This document shows, in pieces, positions 14,793 through 31,867 of a DNA stretch of 55,520 bases. The translations under genes and the position numbers were made by a program. How positions within the stretch are numbered: position 1 is the stretch's first letter; each line of letters starts with the position of its first letter. Source of the DNA: an uncultured Hyphomonadaceae bacterium (GTDB lineage: Bacteria > Pseudomonadota > Alphaproteobacteria > Caulobacterales > Hyphomonadaceae); the NCBI GenBank assembly GCA_938084575.1, contig CALKFG010000008.1:1-55520 (forward strand), in the 5' to 3' direction. The notes below the pieces were generated by a model. That model saw nothing but the letters and a program-made list of their open reading frames with translations, searched no databases and had not been told where the DNA came from.

Positions 14793-15293
14793 GGTTGACC
14801 CACCCCTTGCCGATGGGGCGCGATACATGTCCTGCCCGCCGCCGGGGCCATAGGCGGGGCCCCTGCCAGTGCCTTCGGGTGTCGCCTGTTCCGGCTCAGA
14901 AAACACACCGTGATCGCGGCACCCATGGCCGCGGACCCCTTCCGTACACCTGTCAGGTCAGTCATGCTGCCCCCTTTGTGCCAAGGCCGCGGTGGTGGCC
15001 ACATCTGCGCCGGCCGAGCTTGCAGCAGATCGATCTGTCTGCCAAGTGTGGAGGTCTGGACCAGCCGGGTCCGCCGGCCGCGTTGGCACGCCGGTCCCGG
15101 GTGCGGCGGGTGCAGGCGAGCGGGACCCCGATGGTCGGCGCTGGCATCTTGGCCAGACGGCCGGGTCTTCATCGGGGCCCCGGCTGTGCTGGGGGCTGCC
15201 TGCAGGGCGCGCCCAGCCGGATCGTGATGTCATAAGCGGGGCAGAGGGGCAAAACCTTTCGCCGGTCTGGCGAAGATGCGTCGGTCGGAAGAT
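14793..15293. other. Intergenic region without a supported gene
   Basis: This GC-rich stretch has open frames on both strands, but none has a plausible start, RBS or protein-like composition. It leads into the small-RNA-like element at 15294-15406. Confidence 0.5.
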
Positions 15294-15380
15294 GGAAAAA
15301 GAGCAGGCGGCGCTCTGGAGCACATGAAGTGGGTGTGGGAGAGTGGGAGAGGAGCTCAGTCTGTGTCGCGTCCGCCTGCA
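15294..15380 (-). ncRNA. Predicted small RNA, copy 1 of a two-copy stem-loop family
   Basis: Read on the minus strand, the 5' arm GCAGGCGG (15379-15372), a bulged A and CGC (15370-15368) pair with GCG (15313-15311) and CCGCCTGC (15310-15303). The T-run TCTTTTT (15302-15296) follows, so the RNA would end like an intrinsic terminator after about 85 nt. The loop is pyrimidine-rich (CTCCTCTCCCACTCTCCCAC), complementary to Shine-Dalgarno-like purine runs. A second copy at 30722-30802 keeps the stem with a compensatory change in its third-last pair (C-G here, U-A there). A sigma-54-like promoter motif starts 11 bp upstream. It lies in the gap divergent from the gene at 15552. Confidence 0.6.
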
Positions 15381-15390
15381 CCCGGAACTA

Positions 15391-15406
15391 TTCAAGTTCC
15401 GTGCCA
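15391..15406 (-). promoter_or_regulatory. Sigma-54-like -24/-12 promoter motif of RNA copy 1
   Basis: On the minus strand the sequence reads TTGGCACG-GAAC-TTGAA, against the sigma-54 consensus YTGGCACGrNNNTTGCW. Only the C of the -12 GC is changed to A. The predicted start falls at about 15380, exactly where the stem begins. The same motif at the same distance precedes copy 2. Confidence 0.5.
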
Positions 15407-15551: not shown

Positions 15552-16034
15552 ATGATCCAAAAGCTGACCACGTCGCTGGCGCTTGCAGGCCTCGGACTGA
15601 TGACGATTTTTACCGCCCAGGCGGATCAGACCATTGAGATTGTTCAGGACCGGCCTGACATTGTGCATGTTGATATTGGCGCCGATGGCGGGCCACATGG
15701 TGACCTGCTTGCCTTTGAAGCACCCTTCCAGACATCTGAAGGGGAGGCCGGGATAATCAGCGGTATGGTTATGACGGTCGACCTCGATGTCGGTACTGGC
15801 GGAGTCTACCATGACCGGGTTGCGAATATCGTGCTGGATTTTGGCGCGGATGATACGCTGGTGGTCGGTGGACAGTCTCGCTATGGCGCGCAGGAGGCGG
15901 AACTCAGCGCTGACGTGCCGCAGCTGCGTGCGATTGTCGGCGGCACGGGTCGGTTTATCGGTGCCCGCGGGCAAATCCTGACCACCCGCAAGGATCAGGG
16001 CCACTATCAGCACGTGATTACCCTGCTCGACTAA
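15552..16034 (+). CDS. Secreted protein with dirigent/allene-oxide-cyclase-like barrel signature
   Basis: 160 residues from ATG 15552 (AAGGGGA about 9 nt upstream). It opens with a Sec signal peptide ending near AQA (residue 24). The mature part is beta-rich, and its C-terminal segment IVGGTGRFIGARGQILTT resembles the GGTGxFxGARG turn of allene-oxide-cyclase and dirigent-like barrels, which bind small hydrophobic molecules. The fold assignment is by motif only. The minus-strand gene at 16630-17172 carries the same type of segment, so the two may be distant paralogues. The sigma-54-like element of RNA copy 1 lies 150 bp upstream on the other strand. Confidence 0.65.
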   Translation: MIQKLTTSLALAGLGLMTIFTAQADQTIEIVQDRPDIVHVDIGADGGPHGDLLAFEAPFQTSEGEAGIISGMVMTVDLDVGTGGVYHDRVANIVLDFGADDTLVVGGQSRYGAQEAELSADVPQLRAIVGGTGRFIGARGQILTTRKDQGHYQHVITLLD

Positions 16035-16069: not shown

Positions 16070-16546
16070 TCATTCGGCGATACAGGACCCGGCGAAAAGC
16101 GCGCTGCTGTCGGCCATCGCATCCGGTGCGTCATCGACAAAGGCATAGCCGCCCAGACTGCCGCGATAGAATTCGAACCGGCCTGTCTCAGGCGAGAACA
16201 CAAGCTGCCATGGCATACGGCCTGGTCCGGGCTCAAAGCGCAGGCCGCAAATCACCAGGCCGGGCCAGATTTCCCCGGTGACCGGGCCGCAGGTCAGTTC
16301 ATGGGCCGACACGGCATCACGATAGGCCAGCTGTGACGGTGTTTCCGCGCCGTCTGCGGTCCAGTCGCCCTGCAGGGTGAAGGTAATGTTGCTGAACCCG
16401 GTCGAGACCCATTGCTGTTGCCCGACATCTTTGCGGTGGCCTGCGGCCAGGTCAGAGCGACAGGAAAACCGCGTCTCCTGGCCTCGGGCTGCCGGACCGG
16501 CCAAGATCAGGATCAGGATCAGGGCAGCTGACAGGGGGCGGGGCAT
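16070..16546 (-). CDS. Hypothetical secreted protein
   Basis: 158 residues from ATG 16546, with a strong AAGGAGG RBS. The signal peptide core LILILILAG is encoded by a three-fold hexamer repeat (GATCAG on the plus strand, about 16505-16523). The mature protein has four cysteines (FSCRSD, LTCGPV, VICGLRF, AGSCIAE), which would allow two disulfides in the periplasm or outside. I recognise no family. It ends 36 bp from the convergent barrel protein gene and follows the gene at 16630-17172 on the same strand, after an intervening hairpin. Confidence 0.65.
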   Translation of the reverse strand: MPRPLSAALILILILAGPAARGQETRFSCRSDLAAGHRKDVGQQQWVSTGFSNITFTLQGDWTADGAETPSQLAYRDAVSAHELTCGPVTGEIWPGLVICGLRFEPGPGRMPWQLVFSPETGRFEFYRGSLGGYAFVDDAPDAMADSSALFAGSCIAE

Positions 16547-16588
16547 GGTGGTCCTCCTTGATGCCTGACGCTGGCTGTGTCCCCGGAT

Positions 16589-16620
16589 CAGGGCCTGACC
16601 ATGTGTCCGGTCAGGCCCTG
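16589..16620 (-). terminator. Perfect 12-bp hairpin after the barrel protein gene
   Basis: CAGGGCCTGACC (16589-16600) pairs with GGTCAGGCCCTG (16609-16620). It lies 10 bp after the stop of the minus-strand gene at 16630-17172 and before the next start. No T-run follows, so it may attenuate or stabilise RNA ends rather than terminate fully. Confidence 0.45.
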
Positions 16621-16629
16621 CCACCAGGG

Positions 16630-17172
16630 TTAGTGGTCGCGACGGTGGTGTCTTTCCCAGGACTCATCCTCGTCCTCGTGGCCGTCTTCATGCTTGTGGG
16701 TGAAATGGAATTCATGGGCCCAGGTGTCGTCGGCGAAATGGGTCGAGATGGCCTCGCCCGTGGCACCGGCATGGTCGCCGGTTCCGCCAAGAACAGACCG
16801 CGCCAGAGAGCTGGCGGGCTTGAAGGTGCTGCCCGTCGTCGGGTAAAGGCCAACGCCTTCGATGATGATCTGGTTGATGTCGGCGCCCTCGAATGAGAAA
16901 ATGCCGGTTGTGACCCGGGTTTCGATGCCGGCGTCCGGCGTGTTGGTCGCCGTTGTCAGCATGATCCATTCCATTTTGACCGGTGACCCGTCTTCCGTTG
17001 TCCCGTCAAAATGCCAAATGCGCTGGTCACCGACAGAGTGGCCTTCGACGCCATGGTCGATCAGGGTCGGAGCAGGGACGCTGCCATGATAGACTTTCAG
17101 GGCGTCTGCATGGGCCGACAGGCTGCCGGTCAGGGCAAATCCGGCGATCAGGGCTGTAAGGATGTTTTTCAT
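16630..17172 (-). CDS. Secreted barrel-like protein with His/Asp/Glu-rich tail
   Basis: 180 residues from ATG 17172 (GGAG 8 nt upstream) with a signal peptide ending at AHA (about residue 22). The central part is beta-rich, and SVLGGTGDHAGATGEAIS resembles the GGTGxxAGATG turn of allene-oxide-cyclase-like barrels, as in the gene at 15552. The last 28 residues are dominated by H, D, E and R (HEFHFTHKHEDGHEDEDE, then ERHHRRDH), which could bind metal such as zinc, copper or nickel. The function is unknown; the fold is an inference from one motif. Confidence 0.65.
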   Translation of the reverse strand: MKNILTALIAGFALTGSLSAHADALKVYHGSVPAPTLIDHGVEGHSVGDQRIWHFDGTTEDGSPVKMEWIMLTTATNTPDAGIETRVTTGIFSFEGADINQIIIEGVGLYPTTGSTFKPASSLARSVLGGTGDHAGATGEAISTHFADDTWAHEFHFTHKHEDGHEDEDESWERHHRRDH

Positions 17173-21283: not shown

Positions 21284-21379
21284 TGGCGGAGGCGGATGGG
21301 AATCGAACCCACCACACGCCGGTAACGGCGGGTCCATGGTTTTGAAGACCAGGGGAGCCACCAGACTCCAGTCGCCTCC
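21284..21379 (-). tRNA. selC: tRNA-Sec (anticodon UCA)
   Basis: The minus-strand sequence starts GGAGGCGA and ends CCGCCTCC-G-CCA, an 8-position acceptor arm with encoded CCA (21286-21284). The anticodon loop CTTCAAA carries TCA (21345-21343). The T arm reads GGTGGGTTCGATTCCCATC. A long variable arm with stem CGCCG/CGGCG is present. Length (96 nt), long extra arm and UCA anticodon identify selenocysteine tRNA. It sits between selB and the thioredoxin-like gene on the same strand and may be cut from one long transcript. Confidence 0.96.
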
Positions 21380-21433: not shown

Positions 21434-23326
21434 TCAGCCCTGTGTTTCAATATTGAAATATCGGGCATTGCCCTGCCGGGTTGTGAGGCCCTTCCGGTCA
21501 AAATACTCCAGCAGGGGAACAACCAGCTTGCGATTGGTTCCCAGGGCGTGGCGGGCTTCGCTGGTTGTGAATTGGGTTGGTGCAGGGAATTTGTTTGCGA
21601 GGTCCGTCGCCGCATCCCTGGCAGTCTGGCAATGTACGACCAGCGACTGCCGAAGGGCATGATTGTACAGACGCAGGGCCCGTCCACTCCAGACCAGCAA
21701 GTCGATCAGATCTTCATCTGCAATGCGACGCGACGGTTCGTATTGTCCGGGCTGAAGCGCGGCGTCGAGCAGGTGCGCTTCGGTCCGGGTCAAGTTTTCC
21801 TGATCACCGGGGCTCATCAGGCGAAAGGGATCATGATCGCTACGGGCCAACCCATCGCCCCGCCTTTCTATATCACCGGATGCGATCAGGCTGGCTTCTG
21901 CGTGGGTCAGCAGGACTGCGGGGGTGTCCTGAATACGCGACCGGATCATGGTCAGGGCATGGGCCGGCCGCAGCGGCCAGATGGCATGCAAAGCGTCAAG
22001 CTGCTGCAAATAGGACGTCCGGGCAAGGTCGAGGGACGATCCGTCGAAGACATTCCCGGCATCATCCAAAACGAAGGTGGGCATAAGTGCCTGGCGGCAG
22101 GCCGGCCCGTCGAGGCCGGCAAGACGCACAACATCATCGAGCCGGGCATACCCGCCGTCGCGCTCGGTCAGCGCCTTGGCTATGCCTGAAACATCGCCGC
22201 TATGGGTGGCCTCAAGGACGGCGATTTGGCGAGCTTTCCGGCGTCCTTGATCCCGCGCGACAGGGTCCAGAATTTGTCCCCCAGCCAAACGACCTGTGTG
22301 GCCTTGCCGCAGCAGAATCACAGGCTGGCCAGCATAAGCAATTTGGGGTTTTTGAAAGAGAAGCTGGGCGTATTGCGGCAGGGTCGGATCGCTTGGGTGC
22401 AGATCATATAATTTCACCCTTGCGCTGCTGTTCTGGGTGCCATGAAGCGCCACGACGTGTTCCATGTGTTGCATTGGTGCGGGGGCTTCAGGTCCGGGCT
22501 TGATCCGGATATCAAATCGCTTGGAGGGGGCGAACGCTCCGACGGCGCAGAGAACCGAACCCCTCGACAGAGCCCCCGACGCGCTGTTTCTGAGGTTGAC
22601 TGCAACTCGGGCGCCAGGGGCGACTTGGGCAACCTCCTCGCCATTGACCTGCAGCCTGCGCAAGGAGACCGGTATCGCCCCCGGTTCCACTTGGCAGGCC
22701 CGGCTTGGGCTGAGCGCGCCACCCAGCAGGGTTCCCGTGATGATGGTTCCAACGCCGCGTTGCGAAAAAACACGATCGATCGGTAGGTAGGGTTCGATCG
22801 GCCTTTCAGGTGGTTTCAGGTTGAAAACCAGATGGTCAAGGGCCGCCTTCAGCGTGTCGAGGCCATCGCCGCTAAGGGCGGAGCAGGCACAGACAGATGG
22901 ACTTTCAAAACCGTAGCTGCGGAGCAGGCCGGAAGTCTCCTGTCTTAGCGTCTGACATTGATCGGGTTGCGCCCTGTCTGCCTTCGTAATCGCTACAACG
23001 GCGTGTTTTAGTCCCATAAAATGTGCAATTTCAATGTGTTGCTTCGTCTGTTCCTGGAGACCATCTATGGCCGACACAACCAGCAGAATGGCCTGAACGC
23101 CGCTCAGTCCGGCAATGGTCGTCTGCAGGAAGTCGACATGGCCGGGCGCATCAATCAGGTTCAGCCGACCCGATGGCAGATCGCACCTTGCAAATCCAAG
23201 CGACAGGGTCAGGCGCCGCCGTTTTTCTTCAGGCTGGGTATCGGTATCTGTCCCGGTGAGCGCTTTGACCAGGGACGTCTTGCCATGGTCAACATGACCC
23301 AGCACGGTGATGACGGCATGGCTCAT
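21434..23326 (-). CDS. selB: Selenocysteine-specific translation elongation factor SelB
   Basis: 630 residues. The GTPase domain has the P-loop GHVDHGKTSL (residues 10-19), switch II DAPGHVDF and the base-recognition motif TKAD. Domains II and III of the EF-Tu type follow, and the C-terminus carries winged-helix repeats that bind the SECIS RNA (ending near RKLVVPLLEYFDRKGLTTRQ). It delivers selenocysteyl-tRNA-Sec to UGA codons that carry a SECIS hairpin. Its ATG (23326) overlaps the stop of selA by 4 bp (ATGA), so the genes are translationally coupled. Confidence 0.96.
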   Translation of the reverse strand: MSHAVITVLGHVDHGKTSLVKALTGTDTDTQPEEKRRRLTLSLGFARCDLPSGRLNLIDAPGHVDFLQTTIAGLSGVQAILLVVSAIDGLQEQTKQHIEIAHFMGLKHAVVAITKADRAQPDQCQTLRQETSGLLRSYGFESPSVCACSALSGDGLDTLKAALDHLVFNLKPPERPIEPYLPIDRVFSQRGVGTIITGTLLGGALSPSRACQVEPGAIPVSLRRLQVNGEEVAQVAPGARVAVNLRNSASGALSRGSVLCAVGAFAPSKRFDIRIKPGPEAPAPMQHMEHVVALHGTQNSSARVKLYDLHPSDPTLPQYAQLLFQKPQIAYAGQPVILLRQGHTGRLAGGQILDPVARDQGRRKARQIAVLEATHSGDVSGIAKALTERDGGYARLDDVVRLAGLDGPACRQALMPTFVLDDAGNVFDGSSLDLARTSYLQQLDALHAIWPLRPAHALTMIRSRIQDTPAVLLTHAEASLIASGDIERRGDGLARSDHDPFRLMSPGDQENLTRTEAHLLDAALQPGQYEPSRRIADEDLIDLLVWSGRALRLYNHALRQSLVVHCQTARDAATDLANKFPAPTQFTTSEARHALGTNRKLVVPLLEYFDRKGLTTRQGNARYFNIETQG

Positions 23327-24714
23327 GCGCGCATGGCGGAAAGCACCATTTGGGCGACCTGGCTAACCTCCGCATCGGCGACTGTCCGCGCGTCCAGAAG
23401 CAGCCTGTCTTGCGAGATGCGGCCAATGACCGGCATGCTGCCCGCTCTGAGGCGCCGCGACAGCTCCTGTGCCGAGCAGTCCGAACAGGTCAGCGCGACC
23501 GCAAAGCTCGGCAGGTCCTGCTGCGGCAGGGAGCCTGCACCGGCGCGTGCGACGGTGTGTACGAGCTGAGTGTCCAGTCCATCAAGCGCCCCGATCTGTG
23601 CCGCGAGGCGGCCCGCCCGCTTTTTCACTGTTTCGAGTGTTTCGGATAGGGCTTGCAGGACGGGGATGCGTTCGACCGGTCTGTTAGGGGCACGATACAG
23701 GTCAAGGGTCGCGCAAAGCGCTGACAGTGACAATTTATCGATCCGAACCGCCCGTGCGATTGGATGCTTGAGGATGCGCTCAATAAGGGCCCGTTTGCCT
23801 GCGATTATACCGGCCTGGGGTCCCCCCAGAAGTTTGTCGCCGGAAAAGGTAACAAGGTCGACCCCCGATGCCAGAACGTCGCTAATCACCGGTTCATCCG
23901 GCAGGCCATAGGAGGCAAGATCAATCAGGACGCCGCTGCCGAGGTCTTCGACCAGGGGCAGCCTGTGTCGGTTCGAGAGATCTGAAAGGTCGCGGCGGCC
24001 AGGCGAAGAGGTAAAGCCGACGATCTTGTAATTGCTGGTATGGCTTTTGAGCAGGAGCCCGGTGTCTTCGGTAATGGCCATTTCATAGTCACTCAGATGG
24101 GTCTTATTGGTGGTTCCGACCTCTTTGAGCTCGGCGCCACTCTGCAGGATGATATCTGGCATCCTGAAAGAGCCCCCGATCTCAACCAGCTCACCGCGCG
24201 ATATCACGACCTGCTTTCCCGATGCGAGCGCTGTCAGGCTGGCCATAATCGCAGCGGCACCATTGTTGACGACCATGGCAGCTTCCGCACCGGTGAGCGC
24301 GCAAATTTGTGCCGCGACATGGTCCTGGCGGGAGCCGCGGTGACCAGTCTCGAGGTCCAATTCCAGAGTCGAGTAATTTTCGGCTACGTCTTGCACCGCT
24401 TTGATGGCCTCCGGCGCCAATCGGGCCCGACCGAGATTGGTATGGATAAGGATGCCGGTCGCATTAATGACCGACGTCAGCGTGATGTCCCGTTTTCCCG
24501 ACAGCCGCACCGCAATGTCATGGAAGAAACCCGAATGCGGGTCGAGCCCCTCGGCTGCGTCATCGCCTGCAATGATGGCAGTGCGAATTTCCTGGAGCCG
24601 GTCGCGAATGGCCTGTGTCACGTCGTCATGACCGAATTCATGGATCAGCAGGACCGCGGGCGGGCTTTCCAGCAGCCGCTGGATCTGGGGCAGTTGTCTG
24701 AGGCGGTTTTGCAT
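23323..24714 (-). CDS. selA: L-seryl-tRNA(Sec) selenium transferase SelA
   Basis: 463 residues, the normal SelA length. The PLP-binding lysine is in TFSGDKLLGGPQAG at K294; INATGILIHTNLGRA (about residues 83-97) and LETGHRGSRQDH are typical SelA segments. The enzyme converts seryl-tRNA-Sec to selenocysteyl-tRNA-Sec using selenophosphate. It is the first gene of selA-selB-tRNA-Sec-thioredoxin-like-UGSC on the minus strand. The selenophosphate donor enzyme SelD is not encoded in this window and must be elsewhere. Confidence 0.97.
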   Translation of the reverse strand: MQNRLRQLPQIQRLLESPPAVLLIHEFGHDDVTQAIRDRLQEIRTAIIAGDDAAEGLDPHSGFFHDIAVRLSGKRDITLTSVINATGILIHTNLGRARLAPEAIKAVQDVAENYSTLELDLETGHRGSRQDHVAAQICALTGAEAAMVVNNGAAAIMASLTALASGKQVVISRGELVEIGGSFRMPDIILQSGAELKEVGTTNKTHLSDYEMAITEDTGLLLKSHTSNYKIVGFTSSPGRRDLSDLSNRHRLPLVEDLGSGVLIDLASYGLPDEPVISDVLASGVDLVTFSGDKLLGGPQAGIIAGKRALIERILKHPIARAVRIDKLSLSALCATLDLYRAPNRPVERIPVLQALSETLETVKKRAGRLAAQIGALDGLDTQLVHTVARAGAGSLPQQDLPSFAVALTCSDCSAQELSRRLRAGSMPVIGRISQDRLLLDARTVADAEVSQVAQMVLSAMRA

Positions 24715-30721: not shown

Positions 30722-30802
30722 AGGAAAAGAGCAGGCGGTGCCCGGGGAACACTTGAGGTTTATGTGGGAGGAGAGAGAAAGTGTCTGTCGCATCCGCCTG
30801 CC
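30722..30802 (-). ncRNA. Predicted small RNA, copy 2 of a two-copy stem-loop family
   Basis: On the minus strand GCAGGCGG (30801-30794), a bulged A and TGC (30792-30790) pair with GCA (30741-30739) and CCGCCTGC (30738-30731). TCTTTT follows. The inner pair U-A (30792/30739) replaces the C-G of copy 1, a compensatory change that supports an RNA structure. The loop holds CTCTCTCCTCCCAC, a perfect anti-Shine-Dalgarno stretch. The expected length is about 78 nt. It lies downstream of the outer membrane protein gene on the same strand, in the 305-bp gap 30689-30993 that otherwise holds no gene. Confidence 0.62.
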
Positions 30803-30812
30803 CCGGTTATTA

Positions 30813-30828
30813 TTCAAGATCCGTGCCA
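30813..30828 (-). promoter_or_regulatory. Sigma-54-like -24/-12 promoter motif of RNA copy 2
   Basis: On the minus strand it reads CTGGCACG-GATC-TTGAA, the same degenerate sigma-54 pattern as at 15391-15406. The -12 base is 13 nt from the first stem base in both copies. Confidence 0.5.
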
Positions 30829-30993: not shown

Positions 30994-31617
30994 TTAGAAA
31001 CGGTAAATCAGGGAGCTGGAAATCATGCCATATTCATTATCGCGGGTCGACCGACCGGGTTGATCGGTGATCTCATCGAACGAACTGTCATTTACATAAG
31101 CGAGTTCTAATCTGACGCCAATTCTCGGAGTGAAAAAGTGCTCGACACCAGAGCCGCTCGAAATCAGCATGCCATTAGCGGTTATCTCTGGAGTGGTGAG
31201 ATATTCCGGCGCGCTGGTCTGAGACACGCCGCCACCAAACCGGATGAACAGGGCAGAATTATTCTTGCCGTAGGGCAGCCGTGCGACCCCTGAAATGGTT
31301 GCCCAAAGGTCAATCTCGTCATCCGAATCAATCAGCAGAATTCCCCCGCCATTGACAACAGCTTCGCCCCTGGCGGCTTCTGCCTCGATGCGGACATACC
31401 GGTTCAGGTTGTACCCATAGCGTGCATTGAGCAGGGCCGCTTTTCCGAAGCTGGCGCCGACGCCGATCTCATGCCGCGGCGCGGTTTTCTCGTCATCAGA
31501 CTGGGCCTGGGCGCCAAAGGCCGCAAAGGCGAGAAGAGCCGCCGACAAAGTCGCGACATATGTGTTTATATTTGCCAAGGGGGGACTTCCTTTTCGGGCG
31601 ATTTTAAGAGTTGCCAT
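30994..31617 (-). CDS. Outer membrane beta-barrel protein (OmpA-like small porin fold)
   Basis: About 207 residues from ATG 31617. The signal peptide ends at GAQAQ, followed by eight predicted amphipathic strands (for example EIGVGASFGKAALLNARYGY, SALFIRFGGGVSQ, RIGVRLELAYV) and a C-terminal phenylalanine (SLIYRF), the usual BAM recognition residue. An 8-stranded barrel of the OMP_b-brl type is likely. A TTG at 31575 has a better-placed AAAGGAAG but would give a signal peptide without positive charge, so the start is uncertain. The RNA copy 2 gene lies 190 bp downstream on the same strand. Confidence 0.8.
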   Translation of the reverse strand: MATLKIARKGSPPLANINTYVATLSAALLAFAAFGAQAQSDDEKTAPRHEIGVGASFGKAALLNARYGYNLNRYVRIEAEAARGEAVVNGGGILLIDSDDEIDLWATISGVARLPYGKNNSALFIRFGGGVSQTSAPEYLTTPEITANGMLISSGSGVEHFFTPRIGVRLELAYVNDSSFDEITDQPGRSTRDNEYGMISSSLIYRF

Positions 31618-31867
31618 CACCACGCAACTGACCGGGTGAATATAGCCCCGTGTTCGGCATGATTTACTTGTGCGGCAACGCCGTCTGTGGATCTCGGGCG
31701 TGCGGCCAACGGGGCGTCGTTAAATCCATTTCGGACCAGCTTTGCATGACACCGTGCCTTAAAAGGGTTGCTCAAAGTCAGCTTCTATTATCTGCTGATG
31801 AACGGTCGGGCTTGCATATGTTGCATGCAGGCCAGCACCATAGGGATCGGGGCAAGGAGAAGACCAC

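Follow-up and report, generated by a model that had tools for sequence, protein, structure and literature searches.

The two intergenic elements described here are probably sibling small RNA (sRNA) genes, each with its own sigma54 promoter, and the interior of each RNA would lower translation at ribosome binding sites. They lie on the minus strand of the 55,520-nt stretch of DNA that was analysed (the window), copy 1 at 15294-15406 and copy 2 at 30725-30828, and are separated by 15.4 kb. The earlier note on this DNA had reported two intergenic minus-strand elements about 15 kb apart that share an 11-pair stem with one bulged A and carry a T-run after the closing stem, and both descriptions held, the T-run being TTTTT in copy 1 and TTTT in copy 2. 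Its proposal of a duplicated minus-strand sRNA gene of about 85 nt gained boundaries, a promoter and a third copy, with the correction that the predicted RNA of copy 2 is about 78 nt. The most informative feature, which that note overlooked, is a sigma54-type promoter. The features of the two copies are as follows.

15391-15406, minus strand: sigma54-type -24/-12 promoter of copy 1, TGGCACGGAACTTGAA, by sequence match
15296-15380, minus strand: predicted RNA of copy 1, about 85 nt, its start placed from the -12 element and its end from the T-run
15368-15379, minus strand: 5' arm of the closing stem of copy 1, GCAGGCGG-A-CGC, with the bulged A at 15371
15334-15341, minus strand: loop motif CUCCCACA of copy 1 (anti-Shine-Dalgarno-like)
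15303-15313, minus strand: 3' arm of the closing stem of copy 1, GCGCCGCCTGC
15296-15300, minus strand: terminal T-run of copy 1
30813-30828, minus strand: sigma54-type -24/-12 promoter of copy 2, TGGCACGGATCTTGAA, by sequence match
30725-30802, minus strand: predicted RNA of copy 2, about 78 nt, with predicted start and end
30790-30801, minus strand: 5' arm of the closing stem of copy 2, GCAGGCGG-A-UGC
30748-30785, minus strand: inner hairpin of copy 2, GACACUU...AAGUGUU, predicted by folding to present the pyrimidine-rich loop
30763-30770, minus strand: loop motif CUCCCACA of copy 2
30731-30741, minus strand: 3' arm of the closing stem of copy 2, GCACCGCCTGC
30725-30728, minus strand: terminal T-run of copy 2

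In the proposed mechanism, an activated enhancer-binding protein, putatively PspF or a TacA/NtrC-type regulator, would cause sigma54 (RpoN) polymerase to start at or beside the first base of the closing stem, giving a transcript of 78-85 nt from each copy. The 5' end of this RNA would fold onto its 3' end; the resulting long stem, interrupted by one bulged A, and the U-run behind it would together end and protect the RNA. The closing stem would hold out a pyrimidine-rich interior of about 48-54 nt bearing CUCCCACA, and this interior would pair with GGGAG-type ribosome binding sites and lower their translation. The loop of such a terminator would be unusually long, which counts against the explanation. 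An RNA whose 5' end doubles as the 5' arm of its terminator is a useful test of the limit on terminator loop length.

Promoter, start geometry and boundaries

At its left end, the block shared by both copies reads TGGCACGGA[A/T]CTTGAA, a sigma54-type -24/-12 promoter, and the corresponding site of the third copy, located in another genome (G024), reads TGGCATGGAACTTGAA. The pattern TGGCAYGGNNCTTGAA matched the window's own genome (G000) at copies 1 and 2 only, and a scan of the window allowing up to two mismatches returned three promoter matches against 1.07 expected by chance, the two exact ones being the copies. In the sigma54 consensus, TGGCACG-N4-TTGC, the -12 element has the textbook form TTGC, from which the TTGAA of the copies departs, a point against the explanation. 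A sigma54-type site was found upstream of pspF in all 28 genus genomes read (L096-L123), and these sites, which are oriented divergently from pspF, end in TTGAA in 27 of the 28 cases and read exactly TGGCACGGTCCTTGAA in 23; TTGAA thus appears to be a usual -12 form in this genus. In another genus, three genomes have the form TGGCA[C/T]GGGACTTGAA ahead of a flagellin-like start, "flagellin" being a label that we assume from the protein start. G000 has the sigma54 DNA-binding domain, as do 28 of the 29 genus genomes.

The spacer between the -12 A and the closing stem measured 12 nt in all three copies, and its letters were identical at 6, 4 and 0 of 11 aligned columns in the three pairwise comparisons. 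The fixed promoter-to-stem geometry beside a drifting spacer is the main argument for an RNA gene that would start at the stem, and both promoter and geometry are well supported at the level of sequence. A looser pattern, TGGCNYNNNNNTTGMW, matched 74 times in G000, against 13 times for the reversed pattern; 41 of the 44 sites read overlap a frame of at least 150 aa (exceptions L056, L057 and L062), so loose sigma54-like matches alone mean little. Ten non-psp instances of TGGCAYGGNNCTTGAA were looked at, psp status being known for part of the other-genus instances: three precede a flagellin-like start, two of them with the frame itself and one with the same DNA; six are located within open frames or overlap them; and one, in G033, a genome of another genus, precedes hairpins and a T-run. 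This last site (L186; minus strand, 293410-293395 in G033:C1:292400-294400) reads TGGCACGGGACTTGAA; behind it come a 12-nt spacer, a small hairpin, a strong G+C-rich terminator-like hairpin and eight T. The G033 candidate had no Rfam match and by eye is not homologous in sequence to the copies, its pyrimidine stretch lying in a stem; it suggests that sigma54-driven sRNAs of unrelated sequence may occur elsewhere in the bacterial family.

The boundaries of the element were set by comparison of the copies. In a search of the own genome (2.33 Mb, 16 contigs) with copy 1, eight matches were obtained at E<=10; copy 2 matched with an E value of 4.8e-13 and 75% identity, the six other non-self matches had E values of at least 0.229, and there was no strong match besides copy 2. 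The core alignment of the two copies scored 53 against a shuffle maximum of 16, and their 300-nt flanks aligned no better than shuffles, 27 of 100 and 62 of 100 of which scored as well. The similarity ends at the element boundaries, and the flanks are unrelated.

The third copy, predicted RNA structure and distribution

In a DNA search of 61 genomes, G024 was the only further genome matched; the element is present on CAJXMY010000006.1, from an uncultured Hyphomonadaceae MAG. The third copy sits at the locus of copy 1, where the P450 gene has 82% DNA identity and is followed in the same order by a Dirigent-like gene and further stretches. The downstream flanks of copy 1 and G024 scored 52, well above the shuffle maximum of 20, a similarity in keeping with one shared locus, and their upstream flanks showed no similarity beyond shuffles. 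The promoter, the 12-nt spacing, the stem, CUCCCACA and the T-run are all kept in the third copy, while the spacer letters have diverged. Pairwise identities among the three copies were 14-15 of 16 in the promoter, 11-12 of 12 in the 5' arm, 10-11 of 11 in the 3' arm and 5 of 5 in the tail, against 33 of 55, 31 of 54 and 34 of 49 in the interior.

Other features of this neighborhood were observed in passing. Downstream of copy 1, a 112-nt stretch (15112-15223) has 70% identity with the G024 locus, shows no reading frame shared with it and is possibly another noncoding element. Two putative secreted proteins near copy 1 (15552-16034, plus strand, and 16630-17172, minus strand) are weakly alike and both matched at the G024 locus, the first with a sub-threshold Dirigent-like hit.

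As an alternative to a free sRNA, the element could be part of a longer mRNA, as its sigma54-driven leader or terminator, which would fit the lipase-like frame that starts on the minus strand about 390 nt downstream of copy 1. This reading is improbable, since the downstream genes differ, copy 2 facing the end of a convergent YaiI-family gene, since no G024 frame matches the lipase at E<=1e-8, and since a T-run ends each of the three copies. Two copies in one genome with inverted-repeat ends could instead be a mobile or repeated DNA element of the MITE or REP type, a reading that we rejected as very improbable: there are only two copies in 2.33 Mb, each is bounded by a promoter on one side and a T-run on the other, always in the same orientation, plasmids gave no match, the single pattern match on viral contigs had no sigma54-type promoter in the 80 bases before it, and the locus of copy 1 is old, being common to G024. 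Least probable of all is a conserved small protein gene on either strand, which we also rejected. Short open frames do cross both G000 copies on both strands, and the stem-to-stem distances of 77 and 71 nt differ by 6 nt, which keeps these frames in step; the G024 distance of 70 nt is one base off, however, so that no frame holds at both ends across the three copies, and the minus-strand ATG of copy 2 is ACG in copy 1 and G024.

For the preferred reading, that of sibling sRNAs, the closing stem is the central structural feature. It pairs GCAGGCGG-A-(C/U)GC with GC(G/A)CCGCCUGC in eleven pairs (8 + 3) with one bulged A, and the pair adjoining the bulge differs between the copies (C-G in copy 1, U-A in copy 2). 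The earlier note had taken this compensatory change as pointing to a selected RNA structure; the change itself is present, but taken alone it is too weak to show this, for among three sequences one covarying pair was counted against 0.3 in shuffles, 172 of 500 of which scored as high, and the covariation was not significant. In a sliding control, pairing was 93.8% against 25-56.5%, although the control itself leans towards the structure. The inner hairpin CACUU/AAGUG was formed in the predicted folds of copy 2 and G024 and was weak or shifted in copy 1. Relative to 200 shuffles, the folding energies of the predicted RNAs had z values of -1.62 (copy 1), -3.28 (copy 2) and -4.96 (third copy), and copy 1 is predicted to fold only slightly better than its shuffles, with an ordinary energy; the energies of copy 2 and the third copy are low. 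With the promoter stretch added, copies 1 and 2 had z values of -1.60 and -1.33, respectively, and the corresponding values for the opposite strand were -1.36 and 0.45.

A covariance model (R1) built from the three sequences found only the three known copies, both in 29 genus genomes at E<=0.1 and, with stricter filters, in 105 family genomes at E<=0.01. The family was seen in 2 of 105 family genomes, and its presence in two genomes only counts against the explanation. An exact-stem pattern run on GTDB 220 contigs, a set from which the window's own genome may be excluded, gave 20 stretches, of which only that on the G024 contig has a sigma54-type site upstream. A pattern of promoter, CTCC and TCTTTT matched 17 times in 16 of 398 order genomes, against 6 matches for the reversed control, and three of the 17 were the known copies. 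When all 17 were folded, the known copies paired their ends (first against last 30 nt) with 11, 16 and 14 pairs. Of the 14 others, 11 had no end pairing, and L045, L054 (G259) and L055 (G342) had 4, 18 and 15 pairs, respectively. L054 is embedded in large frames, the longest of 582 aa. L055, in a genome of another family of the order, has from position 1501 a sigma54-type site, a stretch with paired ends and a T-run, and lies outside frames of at least 150 aa; about 14 nt separate its stem from the last base of the T-run, so it is no more than a candidate.

None of the 4,227 Rfam models reached its gathering score on an element, tRNA-Sec being the only match in the window, and at E<=10 three weak matches were found in the three loci of the copies, none of them on an element. 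Among the matches listed in a literature search, there was no Hyphomonadaceae sRNA with a sigma54 promoter and no PspF-controlled sRNA, which is not a claim of absence from print. By the searches made, the elements would constitute a new sRNA family, which either is narrow or diverges too fast for those searches. The tRNA-Sec belongs to a selA-selB-tRNA-Sec cluster (21288-21379, 21434-23326 and 23323-24714, all minus strand), in which about 55 nt separate it from the selB frame that precedes it. The tRNA-Sec also overlaps a 582-aa frame, without NCBIfam match, at that frame's start. Its place beyond the selB frame differs from that in other Alphaproteobacteria, where PMC8124441 describes tRNA-Sec nested in selB.

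Candidate activators and proposed action at ribosome binding sites

A PF00158 search of G000 matched in six places, four of them strongly, and the four enhancer-binding proteins are PspF, NtrX, an NtrC-type protein and a TacA/NtrC-type response regulator. PspF scored 473.4 bits with TIGR02974 (cut-off, 443.55) and NtrX exceeded its NCBIfam cut-off; the best NtrC score of the NtrC-type protein fell below the cut-off, and the TacA/NtrC-type regulator (G000 C6, L093) reached no cut-off among the 25 of 117 NCBIfam matches listed, the TacA label being tentative. As read from the sequences, GAFTGA, the motif that contacts sigma54, is kept in PspF and the TacA/NtrC-type regulator and is absent from the NtrC-type protein and NtrX. 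This pattern resembles that of Caulobacter, for which PMC10274813 gives NtrC and NtrX as lacking GAFTGA and FlbD and TacA as having it. Because only PspF and the TacA/NtrC-type regulator keep GAFTGA, one of these two proteins should drive the promoters.

PspF, the phage-shock (envelope-stress) activator, would in one version drive psp together with both sRNAs, which would then silence envelope protein synthesis. Both PspF and PspA are encoded in the genome, PspF is one of the two GAFTGA keepers, and the psp promoter of G000, TGGCACAGTCCTTGAA, has the same -24 and CTTGAA -12 form as the copies. That promoter precedes a small frame, pspA, pspB and a PspC-like gene, the PspB and PspC labels being ones that we presume from the sequence; in the other genus genomes, only the pspF-facing side of the site was read. 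The psp operon of G000 opens with a small putative membrane peptide ahead of pspA (L092, 2409-2616). The core promoter form is nevertheless uninformative about the activator, as flagellin-like genes in three family genomes have the same one. Sites resembling TTAG-N9-CTAA occur about 113 and 91 nt before the -24 element of pspF-psp in many of the 28 genomes, but no PspF-type sites were found upstream of the three copies, where fractions of 0.64, 0.11 and 0.16 of 300 shuffles scored as well, and control by PspF is unlikely. Activation by the TacA/NtrC-type regulator, the only other enhancer-binding protein of G000 with GAFTGA, is a good possibility that stays short of probable; the RNAs would then answer a phosphorelay, perhaps a developmental one like that of TacA in Caulobacter. 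Against it, no binding site is known to us for this regulator and none was found upstream of the copies, where the best shared motif agreed at 8 of 12 positions and was matched or exceeded by 46 of 60 shuffles, and the label itself is tentative. We lean to the TacA-type regulator because neither PspF-type sites nor another shared motif stood above chance.

In the pyrimidine-rich interior, all three copies contain CUCCCACA, which is complementary to the Shine-Dalgarno-like UGUGGGAG. The pyrimidine-rich stretch claimed in the earlier note is thus present, but matching ribosome binding sites showed no enrichment: UGUGGGAG stood shortly before an ATG at 5 sites in G000, where the reversed sequence gave 3, and at 3 sites in G024, where it gave 2. 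Within the stretches examined, two of the G000 sites precede frames that read as 289 and 501 aa and that we take to be lipoprotein-like and methylmalonyl-CoA-mutase-like, respectively. Among the sites combining UGUGGGAG with an ATG, no target was recognized as shared by G000 and G024, and CTCCCACA showed no excess in the window, with 2 occurrences against 2.22 expected by chance. By analogy with the anti-Shine-Dalgarno motifs of SisA-D and NfeR1, which are reported to silence mRNAs (PMC12559287, PMC10746234), the RNAs probably act at ribosome binding sites, on targets that they would reach by base-pairing.

Comparison with known small RNA systems

CcsR/cuckoo RNAs carry pyrimidine-rich loops, and it was to these that the earlier note had linked the elements. 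Beyond that likeness the link was not borne out. According to PMC10253847, CcsR/cuckoo RNAs are cotranscribed with a DUF1127 gene from an RpoHI/HII promoter and are cut out by RNase E; here the promoter is of the sigma54 type, Rfam gave no match, and the upstream neighbor tested for each copy had no DUF1127 hit. Of the upstream minus-strand frames (those of at least 60 aa were tested), 16070-16624 had no family and 30994-31623 was an outer-membrane barrel.

The alphaR8 family (SisA-D of Caulobacter and MmgR of Sinorhizobium) comes closer, as it consists of alphaproteobacterial sibling sRNAs with a pyrimidine-rich anti-Shine-Dalgarno stretch and a terminator (PMC12559287). In the account given there, the core UUUCCUCCCU is single stranded below a weak hairpin, no promoter motif is common to SisA-D, and an N-formylglutamate amidohydrolase gene is linked in most species; a title cited in PMC9170634 places mmgR under positive NtrC regulation. 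In the present elements, by contrast, the closing stem spans the whole RNA and encloses CUCCCACA, and both copies have the same type of promoter. As written, the core UUUCCUCCCU is absent from all three copies (copy 2 has UCUCCUCCCA), and the neighbors given to Pfam or NCBIfam included no N-formylglutamate amidohydrolase hit. In alphar14 (NfeR1), anti-Shine-Dalgarno motifs in unpaired regions are likewise reported to silence mRNAs, and three hairpins each carry CCUCCUCCC behind a sigma70 promoter (PMC10746234). The present elements differ in having one closed stem, at most one inner hairpin and a sigma54-type promoter, and CCUCCUCCC is absent from all three copies.

As a predicted sibling set made from sigma54-type promoters, the elements resemble Qrr of Vibrio, CrcZ/CrcY and GlmY/GlmZ. 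To our knowledge, coregulated sibling sRNAs made by sigma54 polymerase are known mainly from Gammaproteobacteria, these three sets being the examples. Qrr RNAs depend on sigma54 and on the activator LuxO, whose cut-off of 800 bits was reached by none of the four enhancer-binding proteins of G000. Qrr RNAs are described as siblings in PMC12559287, and CrcZ/CrcY and GlmY/GlmZ as sibling sRNAs with sigma54 promoters whose activators are CbrB (PMC6292655) and GlrR (PMC3844500), respectively. All three systems are gammaproteobacterial; the present elements have no Rfam match. An unambiguous example from the Alphaproteobacteria, with an anti-Shine-Dalgarno loop, would show that this logic arose independently there. 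A more far-reaching view, which is tentative and on balance doubtful, is that the elements represent a new alphaproteobacterial family of duplicated, stem-closed anti-Shine-Dalgarno RNAs that would be a major sigma54 output of a small genome, switched by PspF or a TacA-type phosphorelay and serving as a Qrr-like arm of an envelope-stress or developmental signal.
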